Below are positions 18,605 through 35,760 of a DNA stretch of 64,000 nucleotides, in pieces (positions within the stretch are counted from its first letter, which is position 1; each line of letters begins with the position of its first letter). This DNA is from a bacterium. GTDB lineage: Bacteria; Planctomycetota; Planctomycetia; Planctomycetales; Planctomycetaceae. The position numbers and the translations under genes are program-made. A model generated the notes under the pieces. It saw nothing but the letters and a program-made list of their open reading frames with translations, was not told the origin of the DNA and did no database searches. The stretch spans positions 1 to 64,000 of the forward strand of contig WGME01000012.1 in NCBI GenBank assembly GCA_016125225.1, written 5' to 3'.

Positions 18605-18837
18605 CGGTTGCCACCTTGCAGAATCGATACAACCTCTGCCAGACGACCAGTCCTGTGGGACAAAACCCTGCTGGTCAGCTTGTCAAACTCCTTTTTCTTC
18701 GCGGAGGGGATCTCTTCGCATGTTTCTTCTCTGCCACAAGAGCAATCGTGAGCTAGGTTTTCCGGATGGGATTGTGTCGCGCGGTCCCTCGAAGATGACC
18801 AACCTCACCGCGATTGAGACAGGAGTCGTTAATCCCC

Positions 18838-20163
<1,326 letters not shown>

Positions 20164-20214
20164 TGCTCATCCGTGGCAGAGATTGGTCCCTGCTGACTGC
20201 CGAGAAACCTAGCT

Positions 20215-21192
20215 ATGTCGCTCGATCCTGTATTGCTTGTTTCCATCGTTGCCTTCGTGGGTGTCACGGCCTTGGTGACCGCGGTGTTGGCCATTGTTTA
20301 CGGCGTGAATGGAACCCGGGCGGAAGACCGTCTCGATGTTCTGGCTGGCAACAAGCCGGTTGAGGCCGAGAATAAAGGCCTGATGAAAGAAGACATGGTC
20401 CGCATTGGCCGCGGGGCCATGCAGGGCATGATTGGTGGCTTCTCCGATCGGATGGCAAAGTGGGGGCTTTTTTTTGAGCAGGCTGATTCGCCGGTCTCGT
20501 TCGAAACCTTCCTGATGTTGTCGGCAGGTTGCAGCTTTTTGGGTGTCGGTGGCGCGGTCATCGGCAACGCACCCATTCCGCTCTACCCCGTGTGTGGCTT
20601 TTTAACCGCCTTGTTGCCGTTGATGTGGCTGACGATGCGTCGCAATTCGCGGTTCAAGAAATTTGGTAAGCAACTGCCCGATGCCATGGAACTGATTGCC
20701 CGAGCCTTGCGATCCGGTCATAGTCTCTCTTCAGGCCTGCATGTGGTCGTGGAAGAAATGCCCGACCCGGTCTCCCATGAATTTCATCTGGCATTTGAGC
20801 AGCAGAACCTGGGGGTACCCATTGAAGTGGCGCTCAAGAGCATGCTCAAAAGGATGCCCAACCTCGACCTGAAATTCTTCGTGACGGCGGTCGCGATTCA
20901 GCGGCAGACCGGCGGTGACCTCGCGGAAATCCTCGACAAAATTGGTTACGTCATCCGCGAGCGGTTCAAGATTCTGGGAACCGTGCAGGCTTTGACCGGG
21001 GAAGGTCGTTTGAGCGGTATCGTGTTGATGGCGATGCCCATCGCCATTTTCATCGCCGTTTATTACCTCAATCCCGATTACGTGATGCTGCTGTTCACGA
21101 CCGAAATCGGCAAGAAGATGATCGCGGGCGGAATTGTGATGCAGGTTCTGGGTGCCGTTGCCATCAAGAAGATTATCGATATCAAGGTGTAG
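20215..21192 (+). CDS. tadB: TadB pilus assembly platform protein
   Basis: 325 residues with membrane segments at the N terminus (VLLVSIVAFVGVTALVTAVLAIVYG), the middle (FLMLSAGCSFLGVGGAVIG, VCGFLTALLPLMWL) and the C terminus (IVLMAMPIAIFIAVYYL, MIAGGIVMQVLGAVAI). The type II secretion F domain is clear: QLPDAMELIARALRSGHSLSSGLHVVVEEMPDPVSHEF and IQRQTGGDLAEILDKIGYVIRERF. It forms the inner-membrane platform of the Tad pilus with TadC. It sits between tadA and tadC on the same strand. Confidence 0.93.
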   Translation: MSLDPVLLVSIVAFVGVTALVTAVLAIVYGVNGTRAEDRLDVLAGNKPVEAENKGLMKEDMVRIGRGAMQGMIGGFSDRMAKWGLFFEQADSPVSFETFLMLSAGCSFLGVGGAVIGNAPIPLYPVCGFLTALLPLMWLTMRRNSRFKKFGKQLPDAMELIARALRSGHSLSSGLHVVVEEMPDPVSHEFHLAFEQQNLGVPIEVALKSMLKRMPNLDLKFFVTAVAIQRQTGGDLAEILDKIGYVIRERFKILGTVQALTGEGRLSGIVLMAMPIAIFIAVYYLNPDYVMLLFTTEIGKKMIAGGIVMQVLGAVAIKKIIDIKV

Positions 21193-21241
21193 CATTGCCC
21201 TCTGCGAACAGCATTCCCTGTGAGATCCCTGAGACAATACC

Positions 21242-22171
21242 ATGAACATGCTTTCGATCTTACCGTGGGCGATCTTCGGCGCGATTACCGTGGCGGTCTG
21301 GGCCGTCATGATGCTCTTTGGTTCGAAGGATTCTCGGGCCGCCGAACGGCTTGACGAACTGCGTGACCCTCAGTTGCGCAATAAGAAGGGCAGCAAGAAA
21401 CAAGGCATGGGAGCCGTGATTGAAGCGGCCGCCCCGGCTCTTTCCAAAGCGCTGCAACCGAAGACCGAACTGGAGCAGAACCAGCTCAAAGTCCGCATGT
21501 CGAATGCGGGCTATCACAATGTCGAAGCCCCGCAGGTGTATCTGGCTATCAAGTTCTGCCTCCTGTTGTTAGGGGCACTCGCTGGTGGTGGATACGGTAT
21601 GCTGGTTTATGGCATGAGCCAGAACGGTTTGACGTCGCTCGTTCTCGCGGCCGGGGCTGGGTTTTATCTGCCCGAAATCGTGCTTAAATTCATGGTGTCC
21701 GGCCGGCAACAGAAAATCTTTCTCTCGCTGCCCGACGCGCTCGATTTGCTGGTGGTCTGTGTCGAAGCAGGTTTAGGTCTTGATGCCGCCATCCGTCGCG
21801 TCTCCGAAGAACTGGGCGATACCGCACCCGAAATCACCAGTGAATTCAATCTGTGCCTGATGCAGTTGAACATGGGACGCCCGCGTCGCGATGTGCTGCA
21901 TGATCTGGGTGTGCGGACGGGCGTGGACGATGTGAAATCGCTGGTCGCGATTCTGATTCAAGCCGACAAGTTCGGGGCCTCGATTGCCCAGGCGTTGCGC
22001 GTGCAGTCCGATGCCATGCGGGTTAAACGTCGTCAGATTGCCGAGGAAAAGGCTCAGAAGACCGCCGTGCAGATGCTCTTCCCGATGGTGCTGTTCATCT
22101 TCCCCGGCATCTTCGTCGTGCTCGTCGGCCCCGCCGCCATCAAGATGATGGATCAATTGCTGGATAAATAG
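21242..22171 (+). CDS. tadC: TadC pilus assembly platform protein
   Basis: 309 residues with the same F-domain architecture as TadB but more divergent: SLPDALDLLVVCVEAGLGLDAAIRRVSEEL followed by LVAILIQADKFGASIAQALRVQSDAMRVKRRQIAEEKAQKTAVQMLFPMVLFIFPGIFVVLVGPA. The first membrane segment is at the N terminus and a long amphipathic cytosolic part follows. It partners TadB in the Tad pilus platform. It is last in the visible tad run; a compound inverted repeat begins at its stop codon and separates it from tdh. Confidence 0.93.
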   Translation: MNMLSILPWAIFGAITVAVWAVMMLFGSKDSRAAERLDELRDPQLRNKKGSKKQGMGAVIEAAAPALSKALQPKTELEQNQLKVRMSNAGYHNVEAPQVYLAIKFCLLLLGALAGGGYGMLVYGMSQNGLTSLVLAAGAGFYLPEIVLKFMVSGRQQKIFLSLPDALDLLVVCVEAGLGLDAAIRRVSEELGDTAPEITSEFNLCLMQLNMGRPRRDVLHDLGVRTGVDDVKSLVAILIQADKFGASIAQALRVQSDAMRVKRRQIAEEKAQKTAVQMLFPMVLFIFPGIFVVLVGPAAIKMMDQLLDK

Positions 22172-25748: not shown

Positions 25749-26357
25749 ATGGCGGAAACCTACAGTATAGCACTGCTCGAGGTGAGCAATCTGGCACCGT
25801 CGTTTATGGTGACAGATCATTGTGCCAAGGCCGCCAATGTGCGGATTCTGGGAATCGAGAGTGCCGACGGAGCCGGGCAGTGCATCAAGCTCGCCGGTCC
25901 TACGGCCGATGTTCAAGCCGCGGCCGAACTGGGTATGGCCATGGCGGAGCGGATGGGCGCCACGGCGACATTCTCGGTGTTGCCGGCCCCCTTGGAAGTG
26001 ACCCGGCAACTCGTTGATTCCAAACCGGTTTTTAGTCCATTACTGGGTGTCTACGACAATCGCATTCCGAAAGACGACAAGATGGCCACGACAGAAGCCT
26101 TGGGACTCTTGGAAACACAAGGGTTGGTAGCCGCGCTGCATGCCACCGATGACATGCTGAAAGCTTCGAACGTCACTCTCGCGGGTAAAGAGAAAATTGG
26201 TGCGGCTTATGTCACCATCATGGTGCGTGGCGATGTGGCTGCCGTTCAAACCGCGATTGAAGTGGGACGCCAGACCGTCGAACGCCTCGGTGGCAAGCTG
26301 ATTCTGGCCGATGTGATTCCTCGACCGCACGCGGACCTCGCCAAACTGCTGCCATAG
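25749..26357 (+). CDS. Tandem-domain bacterial microcompartment shell protein (BMC-T, PduT-like)
   Basis: 202 residues from the ATG at 25749 (MAETYSIALLEVSNLAPSF). There are two BMC domains in tandem: a divergent first copy at about 4-85 (IALLEVSNLAPSFMVTDHCAK, then VQAAAELGMAMAERMGA) and a canonical second at about 105-190 (ALGLLETQGLVAALHATDDML, GAAYVTIMVRGDVAAVQTAIEVG). Such BMC-T proteins form trimeric pseudohexamers in microcompartment facets; PduT and EutL/CsoS1D are known examples. No other shell or lumen enzyme gene is within the window, so it is an orphan or satellite of a distant locus. It ends before a strong bidirectional terminator. Confidence 0.88.
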   Translation: MAETYSIALLEVSNLAPSFMVTDHCAKAANVRILGIESADGAGQCIKLAGPTADVQAAAELGMAMAERMGATATFSVLPAPLEVTRQLVDSKPVFSPLLGVYDNRIPKDDKMATTEALGLLETQGLVAALHATDDMLKASNVTLAGKEKIGAAYVTIMVRGDVAAVQTAIEVGRQTVERLGGKLILADVIPRPHADLAKLLP

Positions 26358-26446: not shown

Positions 26447-28627
26447 CTACTTCGCGTTAGCAGCCTCAGTGGCCGAGACCGGTTTGTCATCGACGGGTTG
26501 TGCTTGGTCCGACGGAGCAGCTGTGGCCGGCAGGGCCGTCGTACCGGTCACGGGAATGATCTGCGATTGCAGAATCTCGCGTGTGGCGTCGTTCTGCAAC
26601 CAGCCCACCAGCGACAGTGCACCTAACTGGGTCGGTTTGGTGGTGAATTGCACATTGCGGCCTGATTCGAACTGCTTCAGATATTCTTGAAGGTGTTCTT
26701 CCACCTCGCTCAGCGGCATCGATAACGAGTATTCAAGTTTGCCGTTGCGTGCCCCGGAACCCTTGGCTCCGCCTGGCATCTCACGCACCACGTTATGATG
26801 TTCGCGGATGCCGTTGGGGGCTCGCAGATGAATGTCGTTGTCCACCAGAGCTAACCGCAGCCGTAACTTTGGCAGCAGCGATTCGTCGAAGTCTGTGGCA
26901 GAAGCCGTAACATGCAACGTGCCGTTCTCCACGCGGGCATCCAGTTCCAGCTTGCCACCCGCGGCCATCTTCATGCGGGCATCGACCAGGGCTCGCACCT
27001 TGCTGTAGATGCCCTCCGTATGGTGGGTGATACCGCCGACACCCCCTTCTGGCGATACCACGCCATCGAGAATTACGGTGGGAGTCCCCGAGCCTTCATA
27101 GTAGGCAAAGCGGTCTTCGCTGTCCTGATTCGTCAGCGGATCTGGAGCCGGAATGTGCTGATGATACTGCAACACGATCACGTTCGATGATGGATAGGTT
27201 TCCGCCAAGGCAGCCAGGGCCAAGTCGGCACCGACGCAGGGAGGGCAACCAATTCCGGTAAACAGTTCCACCAGGACCGTTCGCTTCCGCTCCTCTTCGG
27301 GAACCAACTCACTGGCCGATGACCGTGCCTTCTCGAAGAGTTTCTCGATCTGCTGATGATACGTAGCGTCGATAAATTCATCGAAGCCCTCGACGGAGCC
27401 TTTTTCCTCTTCCCAGATGTTGAGCAATCGCTCGCGGGGCGTTGGGTCGCCAGGGGGCTGGCCCGAATGCATTTCGGCCAGCATTTGTTCGAGCATCGGC
27501 ATAGCGACGATTTCAGCGAAGTAGCTTTTGGCGGCCTCTTTATCATCGTGGCCTGCCGCATAAACTCCCAGCGCCTCAAGAATTTCGGGGTTGTAGCGTT
27601 GCGTGGCGAACAAGCCCTTCAACTCTTCATACGCTTGAGCCTTTTGGGCCGCATCGTCGGTTTTGAGATTTCGCATGGCGATATCAACATGAGCCTGATC
27701 TCGCAACTGCTTTACGGTATCTGCCATTTCACTCTTGAGAGGCTCACCCAAGGAATCGAGGGCTGCAATCCACTCCAGGGCGAGTTCCGGATGTCGACGT
27801 GTGAATGTCACTGAAGCCGCCGCTCGCAACTTGGATTGATCAACAACTCGCTGTCCCCACAGATTCGCGCAGTCAAGACAGTCCGCATAGATTTGCTTCA
27901 GTTGATCGGCGCTCACATTCGGAAATTGATTGAGCCGCGCGAAGATACCGTCATAGGCATGCATCGAGAGTGCCGAGCCGCGCATGTCTTTCGCGGCTTC
28001 AATGATAGAGGCTGGCTGCTCTTTGCTTTGAATGGCATCTTGAAAACGATCGAGCCCGCTGGCCAGGGGCATATAGTCCCAGCCCTCGAAGGTCGTTTCT
28101 TCTGTAGGGCGGAGCATGGCGGTCATCATCCCCATCCCGGGCAGATCGAGTGACCCCCGGACCACCCCATCCATCAGGGTTCCCTGATAGTCTCCTGGCT
28201 GTCCGTTAAAGCTGAACTGCACCTGCAGTTTATTCTGCTCGACTTTTGTCTCCGTCGCTTTCAGATCCGGAAATTTCGGCATTACCGCGACCACGGTGCC
28301 TGTGGTTTCGCCGGATTCCCCCTTTTGAAATTCGAGTAATGCCAGGCAGATATCTCGAAACGAGGGTTGTCCCTTTTCGTCGGGGATCGGCTGAGTGATG
28401 ACTAACCCCCAGCGACCAACGAAGTCCTTGGCGTTCGGGCGGACCCGGAGACCACGGGCATTACTGCCACTTTCGGCTGCAGCGGTGTCGTCTGGACTTT
28501 CTGTTGTCACGCTGGAGTCGCCATCGGTCGAGACGGCTTCATTACGGGCTTTGCCGCAACCGATCAGCGATAAAACGCCAGCCATCACCAAGGCACAAAC
28601 TGTCAAATTGCGAACGCCAAAAAGCAT
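26447..28627 (-). CDS. Lipoprotein with thioredoxin-like domain
   Basis: 726 residues with a lipoprotein signal (MLFGVRNLTVCALVMAGVLSLIGC; lipobox LIGC). A beta-rich N-terminal part (about 60-170) and a helical part (about 190-430) come first. Then a thioredoxin-like domain begins at about residue 450 (TVLVELFTGIGCPPCVGADLALAAL) with a CPPC redox motif and the cis-Pro region GTPTVILDGV. A final beta domain at about 565-690 resembles Ig-like sandwich modules. This resembles membrane-anchored thiol-disulfide proteins in planctomycetes, but the partner is unknown. A Lys/Ala-rich C-terminal tail follows. Confidence 0.8.
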   Translation of the reverse strand: MLFGVRNLTVCALVMAGVLSLIGCGKARNEAVSTDGDSSVTTESPDDTAAAESGSNARGLRVRPNAKDFVGRWGLVITQPIPDEKGQPSFRDICLALLEFQKGESGETTGTVVAVMPKFPDLKATETKVEQNKLQVQFSFNGQPGDYQGTLMDGVVRGSLDLPGMGMMTAMLRPTEETTFEGWDYMPLASGLDRFQDAIQSKEQPASIIEAAKDMRGSALSMHAYDGIFARLNQFPNVSADQLKQIYADCLDCANLWGQRVVDQSKLRAAASVTFTRRHPELALEWIAALDSLGEPLKSEMADTVKQLRDQAHVDIAMRNLKTDDAAQKAQAYEELKGLFATQRYNPEILEALGVYAAGHDDKEAAKSYFAEIVAMPMLEQMLAEMHSGQPPGDPTPRERLLNIWEEEKGSVEGFDEFIDATYHQQIEKLFEKARSSASELVPEEERKRTVLVELFTGIGCPPCVGADLALAALAETYPSSNVIVLQYHQHIPAPDPLTNQDSEDRFAYYEGSGTPTVILDGVVSPEGGVGGITHHTEGIYSKVRALVDARMKMAAGGKLELDARVENGTLHVTASATDFDESLLPKLRLRLALVDNDIHLRAPNGIREHHNVVREMPGGAKGSGARNGKLEYSLSMPLSEVEEHLQEYLKQFESGRNVQFTTKPTQLGALSLVGWLQNDATREILQSQIIPVTGTTALPATAAPSDQAQPVDDKPVSATEAANAK

Positions 28628-34911: not shown

Positions 34912-35760
34912 CTACATCTGCTTCACGGCGGCGCGGAGATTCTTCAGGCAGACTTCGATGTCGGACAAGGGGTTGTCCGGGTTTTCTTCGTATTCCAAAG
35001 CGACGCAGTACTGGTAATCGAGCTTCTTCAGGGCTCGCAGGCAGCCGACGATGTTGAGATCGCCTTCGCCGAGGATCTTGAATTGCTTCGACGATTTGTC
35101 GCCGTTCTTCACCGTCTTCACGTCTTTCATGTGGACGCCGAAGACGCGGGCACCGAAGCGTTCGATGGCTTCCACCGGGTCGACATCGCTCCGCAGGTAG
35201 TGGCCGGTGTCGACGCAGGCCCCGATCTTGGGATGCCGGTCTTTCACCATGCTCCACACATCATCGATGCTGTTGTAACGATGGCCGGGACCGTGGTTAT
35301 GAATCGCGATTGCGACGTCATACTCGGCGACCAGTTTATCGAGCAGATCAAACGTTTCCGGTGTCTTTTCCGGGTCGGCGCTCAGAGACTTGAGTCCCAA
35401 CGCTTTGGCGAATTCGAATTGGCTGCGGGCCTGGGTTTCGTTGGTGCTGAAGGGGAGCACGCCGTAGCCGATCACGGTCACGCCGGCGTCCGCGAGCATC
35501 GCTTTTTGCTCGGCGATCTGGCCGGGGACGTTGCTCATGGGGAGATGCCGGGGATAGGCCTCCCAGTACTTCAAACCCAGGGTGTGCGTATGTTCGAGGG
35601 CCTGCTGCACATCGAAGCCACGCAGTGAGTAGCTTTGAATGCCCGCCTTGAACCCGCCGTACGGATCTTCGGATTCAGCCGACCAGACAGAACGCGTGGT
35701 GATCGCCGCGGCGGCGACTGCCGTGGCTTGCAGAAAATGACGACGAGTGATGGCAGACAT
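34912..35760 (-). CDS. TIM-barrel sugar phosphate isomerase/epimerase family protein, Tat-exported
   Basis: 282 residues from the ATG at 35760, with GGGAG upstream. A twin-arginine signal opens the protein (MSAITRRHFLQATAVAAAAI). The rest is a xylose-isomerase-like (AP endonuclease family 2) TIM barrel: IQSYSLRGFDVQQALEHTHT, ADAGVTVIGYG, VAIAIHNHGPGHRY, KIGACVDTGHYL, VFGVHMKDVKT and the metal-site Glu region CVALEYEENPD. Typical planctomycete enzymes of this type act on exported sugars. It is the third gene of the second PSD1/DUF1501 operon, 114 bp after DUF1501. Confidence 0.88.
   Translation of the reverse strand: MSAITRRHFLQATAVAAAAITTRSVWSAESEDPYGGFKAGIQSYSLRGFDVQQALEHTHTLGLKYWEAYPRHLPMSNVPGQIAEQKAMLADAGVTVIGYGVLPFSTNETQARSQFEFAKALGLKSLSADPEKTPETFDLLDKLVAEYDVAIAIHNHGPGHRYNSIDDVWSMVKDRHPKIGACVDTGHYLRSDVDPVEAIERFGARVFGVHMKDVKTVKNGDKSSKQFKILGEGDLNIVGCLRALKKLDYQYCVALEYEENPDNPLSDIEVCLKNLRAAVKQM

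Follow-up and report, generated by a model that had tools for sequence, protein, structure and literature searches.

A satellite tandem BMC-T gene with a probable internal translation start in Planctomycetota and Verrucomicrobiota

The PVM metabolosome, a microcompartment of the fucose/rhamnose type, is described with BMC-H and BMC-P shell proteins, and no BMC-T protein is named in the accessible parts of its descriptions (PMC4207490, PMC8217296, PMC8857213). Shell proteins with two non-permuted BMC domains per chain are represented by PduT, which is trimeric, and, in engineered form, by 6NER, a tandem of two Haliangium BMC-H copies. In PduB/PduB', one shell gene carries two in-frame start codons, and that of PduB' was mutated in the study of PMC9132943, according to the part of that paper available to us. 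Finally, the accessible text of PMC8217296 lists CcmK3 and CcmK4 of the beta-carboxysome as distal carboxysome paralogs and proposes that their separate regulation tunes permeability. Here we describe a gene that resembles each of these and differs from each: like CcmK3/K4 it lies far from the main locus, whereas its product is a tandem protein of a metabolosome; like PduT this product has two non-permuted BMC domains; unlike 6NER it is natural and its domains have diverged; and like PduB/PduB' the gene contains a second in-frame start codon. Such tandem proteins may already have been placed in a clade in the figures or supplementary material of the 2021 catalogue (PMC8217296).

The window, i.e., the whole stretch of DNA that was analysed (64 kb), represents the first part of a 151,820-base contig and contains one tandem BMC gene with the following features.

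25749-26357, + strand: tandem BMC-T gene, from ATG at 25749 to TAG at 26355-26357; full-length product of 202 aa
25764-25991, + strand: BMC domain 1, divergent; PF00936 at 49.1 bits; loop ESADGAGQC at the pore position by alignment
26082-26084, + strand: in-frame internal ATG, codon 112, ahead of domain 2; proposed second start codon
26082-26357, + strand: proposed short product by translation, a putative 91-aa BMC-H-like protein with a complete PF00936 domain
26097-26327, + strand: BMC domain 2, conserved and BMC-H-like; PF00936 at 85.9 bits; loop KIGAAY

An earlier note on this DNA had read two BMC domains in the gene, and the profile search bears this out, as both exceed the Pfam cut-off for PF00936 (24.5 bits) and each covers model positions 1-75. 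Circular permutation is absent: both domains are complete, and each follows the strand-helix-strand-strand-helix-strand order in the structure model. The protein has the two non-permuted domains of a standard BMC-T protein (BMC-T s) and is predicted to be a trimer. Mean identity to the window's domain 1 is 58% among 24 Planctomycetia representatives and 33% among 17 distant ones, compared with 85% and 68%, respectively, for domain 2; by these values domain 1 is the divergent one of the two and appears to have changed faster. The NCBIfam models for CcmO, CsoS1, EutM, EutK, and PduT are matched only below their cut-offs, with CcmO reaching 107.3 bits against an equivalog cut-off of 270 bits. Facet motifs named in the accessible part of PMC8217296, K..N and RPH, are both present in domain 2 according to the alignments, while domain 1 keeps the facet Lys and lacks the RPH motif. 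The pore position was fixed by alignment with PduA, where the KIGAAY loop of domain 2 is nearly invariant and the putative ESADGAGQC pore loop of domain 1 varies across phyla. Given two different pore loops and a first domain without RPH, a specialised facet or pore protein, one of the roles considered in the earlier note, seems plausible. A function of conserved cysteines as Fe-S ligands was rejected, as they are not retained in distant members; the QC motif of the window protein is kept in 56 of 80 relatives only.

AlphaFold2 modelling of the window protein as a single chain yielded a confident two-domain structure (pLDDT 90.4, pTM 0.87), and the single-chain model of a verrucomicrobial member reached a pLDDT of 88.6, the two models sharing one method and related alignments. 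With both models, 6NER aligns along the entire chain (TM 0.76-0.80, relative to model length), and it is the best whole-chain match for the window protein (Z 23.4, 176 residues, 1.9 Å), whereas PduT and HO-5812 compare with the two models at a TM of about 0.4 and 15-17 Å. In their placement of the two domains, the models thus agree with the engineered fusion 6NER and not with PduT or HO-5812. Structural rows obtained with VIA-align mostly cover domain 2, and the absence of a family from them carries no meaning. The window protein also differs from PduT in having no CPG loop, the Cys-Pro-Gly pore loop that is present in nine PduT-like sequences, and in sharing at most 26% identity with it in structural alignments. 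In a domain tree, which is built from few columns and whose bootstrap has not settled, all first domains fall on one side of a 99/98 branch, the PduT domains are separate (97/97, long branches), and the second domains remain among BMC-H proteins on short branches. Taken with the faster change of domain 1, this tree fits an origin of the tandem gene by fusion of two BMC-H genes, with domain 2 remaining under BMC-H-like constraint.

We then turn to the surroundings of the gene, which the earlier note had described as lacking any other shell or core compartment gene in the 64 kb. This was confirmed, since neither profile searches nor tblastn detected another shell gene or a core PVM gene in the window, and a genome-wide profile search found no further BMC domain and no BMC-P on the entire contig. 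When 15 proteins encoded in the PVM region of this genome were compared with the window by tblastn, BMC-H matched domain 2 of the BMC-T gene, and the sole other match was a weak one (25%, E 3e-6) of an isomerase-like PVM-neighbour protein at 34936-35493. Three ORFs at 18814-22171 (+ strand), upstream of the BMC-T region, we take to be Tad pilus genes by their resemblance (an ATPase and two membrane proteins). A 726-aa lipoprotein-like ORF at 26447-28627 (- strand) is convergent with the BMC-T gene and shows a weak DUF1223 match below the cut-off; similar ORFs adjoin BMC-T in four other loci (L044, L047, L056, L061). The window's neighbours were also considered as conserved context and discarded, as none of the 13 neighbour proteins tested proved general and matches, leaving aside weak dehydrogenase ones, were confined to 7-8 of 80 loci. 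Matches to W_Tlp, W_RidA, W_TadA, or W_bacT occurred in L040, L044, L045, L047, L056, L061, and L065, and weak dehydrogenase neighbour matches in L097, L109, and L117.

The main locus lies elsewhere in the same assembly. Contig C9 (38,584 bases) carries a fucose/rhamnose-type PVM locus within about 9 kb, in the order DeoR, PduL, two BMC-H, acetate kinase, BMC-P, a protein without Pfam match, aldehyde dehydrogenase, BMC-P, a second protein without Pfam match, BMC-P, class II aldolase, and an LDH-type dehydrogenase. This gene set corresponds to the PVM set named in the accessible part of PMC4207490. As side observations, two proteins of the main PVM locus have no match to any Pfam model (L005:9593-10063 and L005:11829-12554), the latter starting with an encapsulation-peptide-like helix (IERIVANVLEQL), and the 432-aa protein that closes the locus (L005:14710-16008) has no Pfam match either. 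The genome-wide search for BMC-H and BMC-P genes that the earlier note had proposed thus retrieved, on C9, a locus with two BMC-H and three BMC-P. A satellite BMC locus is defined by three published conditions (PMC4207490, as given in its accessible part), and the window gene agrees with each of them: its contig has an insufficient shell complement, with only PF00936 domains and not both PF00936 and PF03319; the shell genes of the locus are contiguous, there being a single one; and the genome has the C9 locus with its BMC-H and BMC-P genes. The BMC-T gene is therefore a satellite shell gene, as the earlier note had suggested among other options, and its term orphan holds for the window and fails for the genome. 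That note had also asked whether the gene is an ordinary member of a known locus elsewhere; a main locus elsewhere does exist, while the accessible parts of the PVM descriptions mention no BMC-T. In two relatives, BMC-T and BMC-H are separated by 1.2 Mb (G089) and 3.3 Mb (G148), and this separation is not an assembly effect because each genome was assembled as one contig. Regarding membership in the PVM metabolosome, the main locus is present in the same genome, and the protein is presumed to be incorporated into its shell.

This arrangement is common among relatives. Within the family, 46 of 170 genomes have an ortholog, some as fragments. All 46 family carriers have BMC-P, but so do 164 of the 170 family genomes (p 0.15), and co-occurrence within the family is uninformative for this reason. 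Among 393 sampled Planctomycetota genomes with a completeness of 90% or more, 22 were carriers of a BMC-T of this kind, called at 121 bits or more (14 from the window's subfamily and 8 from a second one), and every carrier had two or more further shell matches; among the non-carriers, 131 genomes had shell matches and 240 had none (p 4e-10, kinship ignored). Likewise, the 11 carriers among 383 Verrucomicrobiota genomes (6 and 5 by subfamily) all fall within the 72 genomes with shell matches (p 5e-9), and 24 of 25 distant carriers have BMC-P, the exception being a 2.5-Mb assembly. The loci fetched from named genomes are the best 80 of 114, and of these L103 alone has genes of the PVM shell and core within the fetched flank; many contigs are short, so the isolation of BMC-T is overstated by some amount. 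The second tandem BMC-T subfamily, read in 13 loci (L120-L132), has the loop KLGGGY or KLGGGF and the end ARPS; it adjoins BMC-H, BMC-P, and aldolase genes in a PVM-like locus in L120-L122 and is unlinked elsewhere. Relatives in Planctomycetota and Verrucomicrobiota are mostly unlinked to the main locus, in genomes that nearly always have one. A possible split BMC-T gene in G885 turned out to be separate BMC genes. Two family genomes that are 97% complete, G003 and G004, have no match to BMC-P, BMC-T, or the PF00701 aldolase discussed below, and have likely lost the whole compartment.

Could the protein instead act outside any compartment, e.g., as a free trimer or as a sheet with another role? 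The absence of linkage in most loci would suit such a use, as would three family genomes (G057, G078, G110) that carry BMC-T and give no BMC-H match. These three genomes nevertheless have BMC-P, and against this use stand also the co-occurrence in the other samples, the facet motifs kept in domain 2, and the linked aldolase, whose tail is encapsulation-like. Use outside a compartment, which the earlier note had allowed for, is disfavoured since carriers almost always have BMC-H or BMC-P genes too, and we hold it to be very improbable. A relic gene that has been drifting since it lost its place in an operon is scarcely credible: a lone position and an occurrence in only 46 of 170 family genomes could be expected of it, yet the reading frame is open in the 30 loci that were read, the window's included, domain 2 retains its high mean identity among Planctomycetia representatives, and the fold is confident. 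We thus return to the satellite shell gene, in which two further traits, both absent from the earlier note, were observed: a conserved internal start codon and a linked PF00701 aldolase.

The junction codon before domain 2 is ATG in 94 of 98 genes and GTG in the other four. The linker in front of domain 2 changes in length and sequence, yet a Met precedes the domain, lying 2-9 residues ahead of its first conserved motif in all 80 genes measured; L105 also has the Met. Seventeen further genes comprise 13 with ATG and four with GTG (L125, L128, L129, L130), and in L128 an AAGGAG stands six bases upstream of the junction GTG. As background, 14-codon windows from other parts of domain 1 contain an ATG in 33% of cases for the set of 80 genes and in 22% for the set of 17. 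Where the junction codon is GTG, 62% of the ATG-free windows of these four genes include a GTG, which puts the chance of four out of four at about 0.15, and GTG as a substitute start was set aside on this ground. The 98 genes share descent and are not independent cases; at <80% identity they reduce to 42 representatives. PduT-like genes served as a control, from which a tenth gene with a single BMC domain had been dropped, and a junction Met was present in two of nine (Ilyobacter, Listeria), close to background.

Local mRNA structure was expressed as a folding-energy z relative to synonymous recodings with local codon usage, positive values meaning weaker structure. At the internal codon, z was +0.67 to +0.74 (se 0.14) in 25 Planctomycetia representatives, rising up to +0.97 eight codons on, +1.35 (se 0.13) in 17 distant representatives, and +1.02 (se 0.22) in 13 genes of the second subfamily, while PduT controls were flat (-0.04, se 0.28, n=7). 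The window's own value is +1.09, and z is positive in 38 of the 42 representatives. Further from the codon, z is near zero or below in the Planctomycetia and distant representatives, save for a second rise of +0.87 in the distant set, 23 codons downstream, which counts against the start reading. Anti-Shine-Dalgarno binding upstream of the internal ATG surpasses that of primary start candidates (-2.65 kcal/mol, n=72) and of random in-frame positions (-2.47 kcal/mol); nevertheless, the ribosome-binding site is no better than expected from the protein sequence (-3.91 vs -3.94 kcal/mol in recodings), and that of the window is weak (-0.9 kcal/mol). Of the features looked for in a gene with two products of the PduB/PduB' type, the conserved internal start codon is present and a better-than-expected ribosome-binding site is not.

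An ordinary satellite BMC-T with one product would be consistent with part of these data. The junction Met would then be the former start of a fused BMC-H gene, kept by descent or for a local reason of folding or codon use. The lack of a Shine-Dalgarno signal beyond that of recodings and its weakness in the window point this way, interdomain linkers may tend towards weak mRNA structure on other grounds, and all evidence for a satellite gene fits equally. It is harder to reconcile with a Met that is kept in so many genes although the spacing to domain 2 varies and domain 1 falls to 33% identity, or with weak structure that recurs in three gene sets and not in PduT. We regard a single product as somewhat improbable, and internal initiation at codon 112 as likely, judging from the sequence. 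A literature search on internal or alternative starts in microcompartment genes returned nothing on tandem BMC-T proteins in the accessible texts. PduB' lacks 37 residues, whereas the short product proposed here would lack a whole domain, which would change the tile from the trimeric to the hexameric type.

When ORFs lying up to 5 kb from BMC-T were clustered over 81 loci, a PF00701 protein (Pfam 201 bits), which matches NCBIfam models below cut-off only, emerged as the recurrent neighbour across both phyla. Direct blastp located this aldolase in 22 of the 81 loci, the clustering having put 23 loci in its first cluster; in 20 it stands directly upstream of BMC-T on the same strand at a distance of 9-174 bp (6 Planctomycetia, 14 others), and the remaining ones lie 2.8 kb upstream (L084) or downstream on the other strand (L104). 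The second largest cluster was dropped, as it contains ORFs antisense to BMC-T, and other clusters include a downstream membrane protein in 11 loci and a kinase in 10. After a variable linker, the aldolase ends in a helix of the encapsulation-peptide type, DVSHIVAAVVDALKRRGIGG in the window's genome, which resembles the N-terminus of the aldehyde dehydrogenase of the same genome and whose hydrophobic moment is within the range of other cargo termini and not exceptional. In the window's genome the aldolase is encoded on contig C27 (L156:8775-9803) and is 70% identical to that of L077 (L077:8923-9939). It adjoins a histidine kinase on C27, and its other neighbour we take to be MnmG; by eye, the same kinds of neighbours flank the aldolase together with BMC-T in L076, L077, L081, L082, and L087. 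The simplest reading is that BMC-T left the aldolase site in the window's lineage, or entered it in others.

Across the family, the aldolase is present in 152 of 170 genomes, i.e., in 45 of 46 BMC-T carriers and 107 of 124 non-carriers (p 0.045). Its role as a BMC-T-specific partner was given up for this reason; occurring in carriers and most non-carriers alike, it seems to accompany the PVM compartment in general and is a candidate PVM cargo whose gene lies at a distance from the main locus. In three incomplete genomes (G008, G096, G102), the aldolase is present and BMC-P gives no match. Lactaldehyde is a PVM intermediate (PMC8857213, accessible part), and from this and its protein family we infer that the aldolase would split a 2-keto-3-deoxy sugar acid into lactaldehyde and pyruvate.

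Together, these observations make it probable, in our view, that the window gene belongs to the PVM metabolosome as a satellite shell gene, that its full-length product would form trimers, and that it would also use an internal start to give a 91-aa BMC-H protein. The trimers would be pseudo-hexameric facet tiles with two alternating pore loops, and being unlinked from the main operon the gene could be expressed separately, altering the mix of tiles and the permeability of the shell. Translation probably also starts at 26082, producing domain 2 alone, a BMC-H protein that would be able to form hexamers, and one gene would in this way supply two kinds of tiles, a trimeric BMC-T and a hexameric BMC-H. 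Where the PF00701 aldolase is linked to the gene, as it is in some of the lineage, it may add a second aldehyde-forming route to this compartment. More tentatively, and as a possibility that stops a little short of being probable, we propose a widespread BMC-T lineage of Planctomycetota and Verrucomicrobiota that originated when two BMC-H genes fused, with the second start still in use, initiation setting the ratio of BMC-T to BMC-H, and the encapsulated aldolase adapting the fucose/rhamnose compartment to the second aldehyde route.

A conserved, unlinked BMC-T protein would add a type of tile to the PVM shell that searches of main clusters would miss. If the internal start is used, a single message could, in a compact manner, fix the proportion of two facet tiles. 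The linked aldolase with its cargo-like tail points to a second route into the compartment, which is itself important to the breakdown of plant and algal deoxy sugars by these bacteria.
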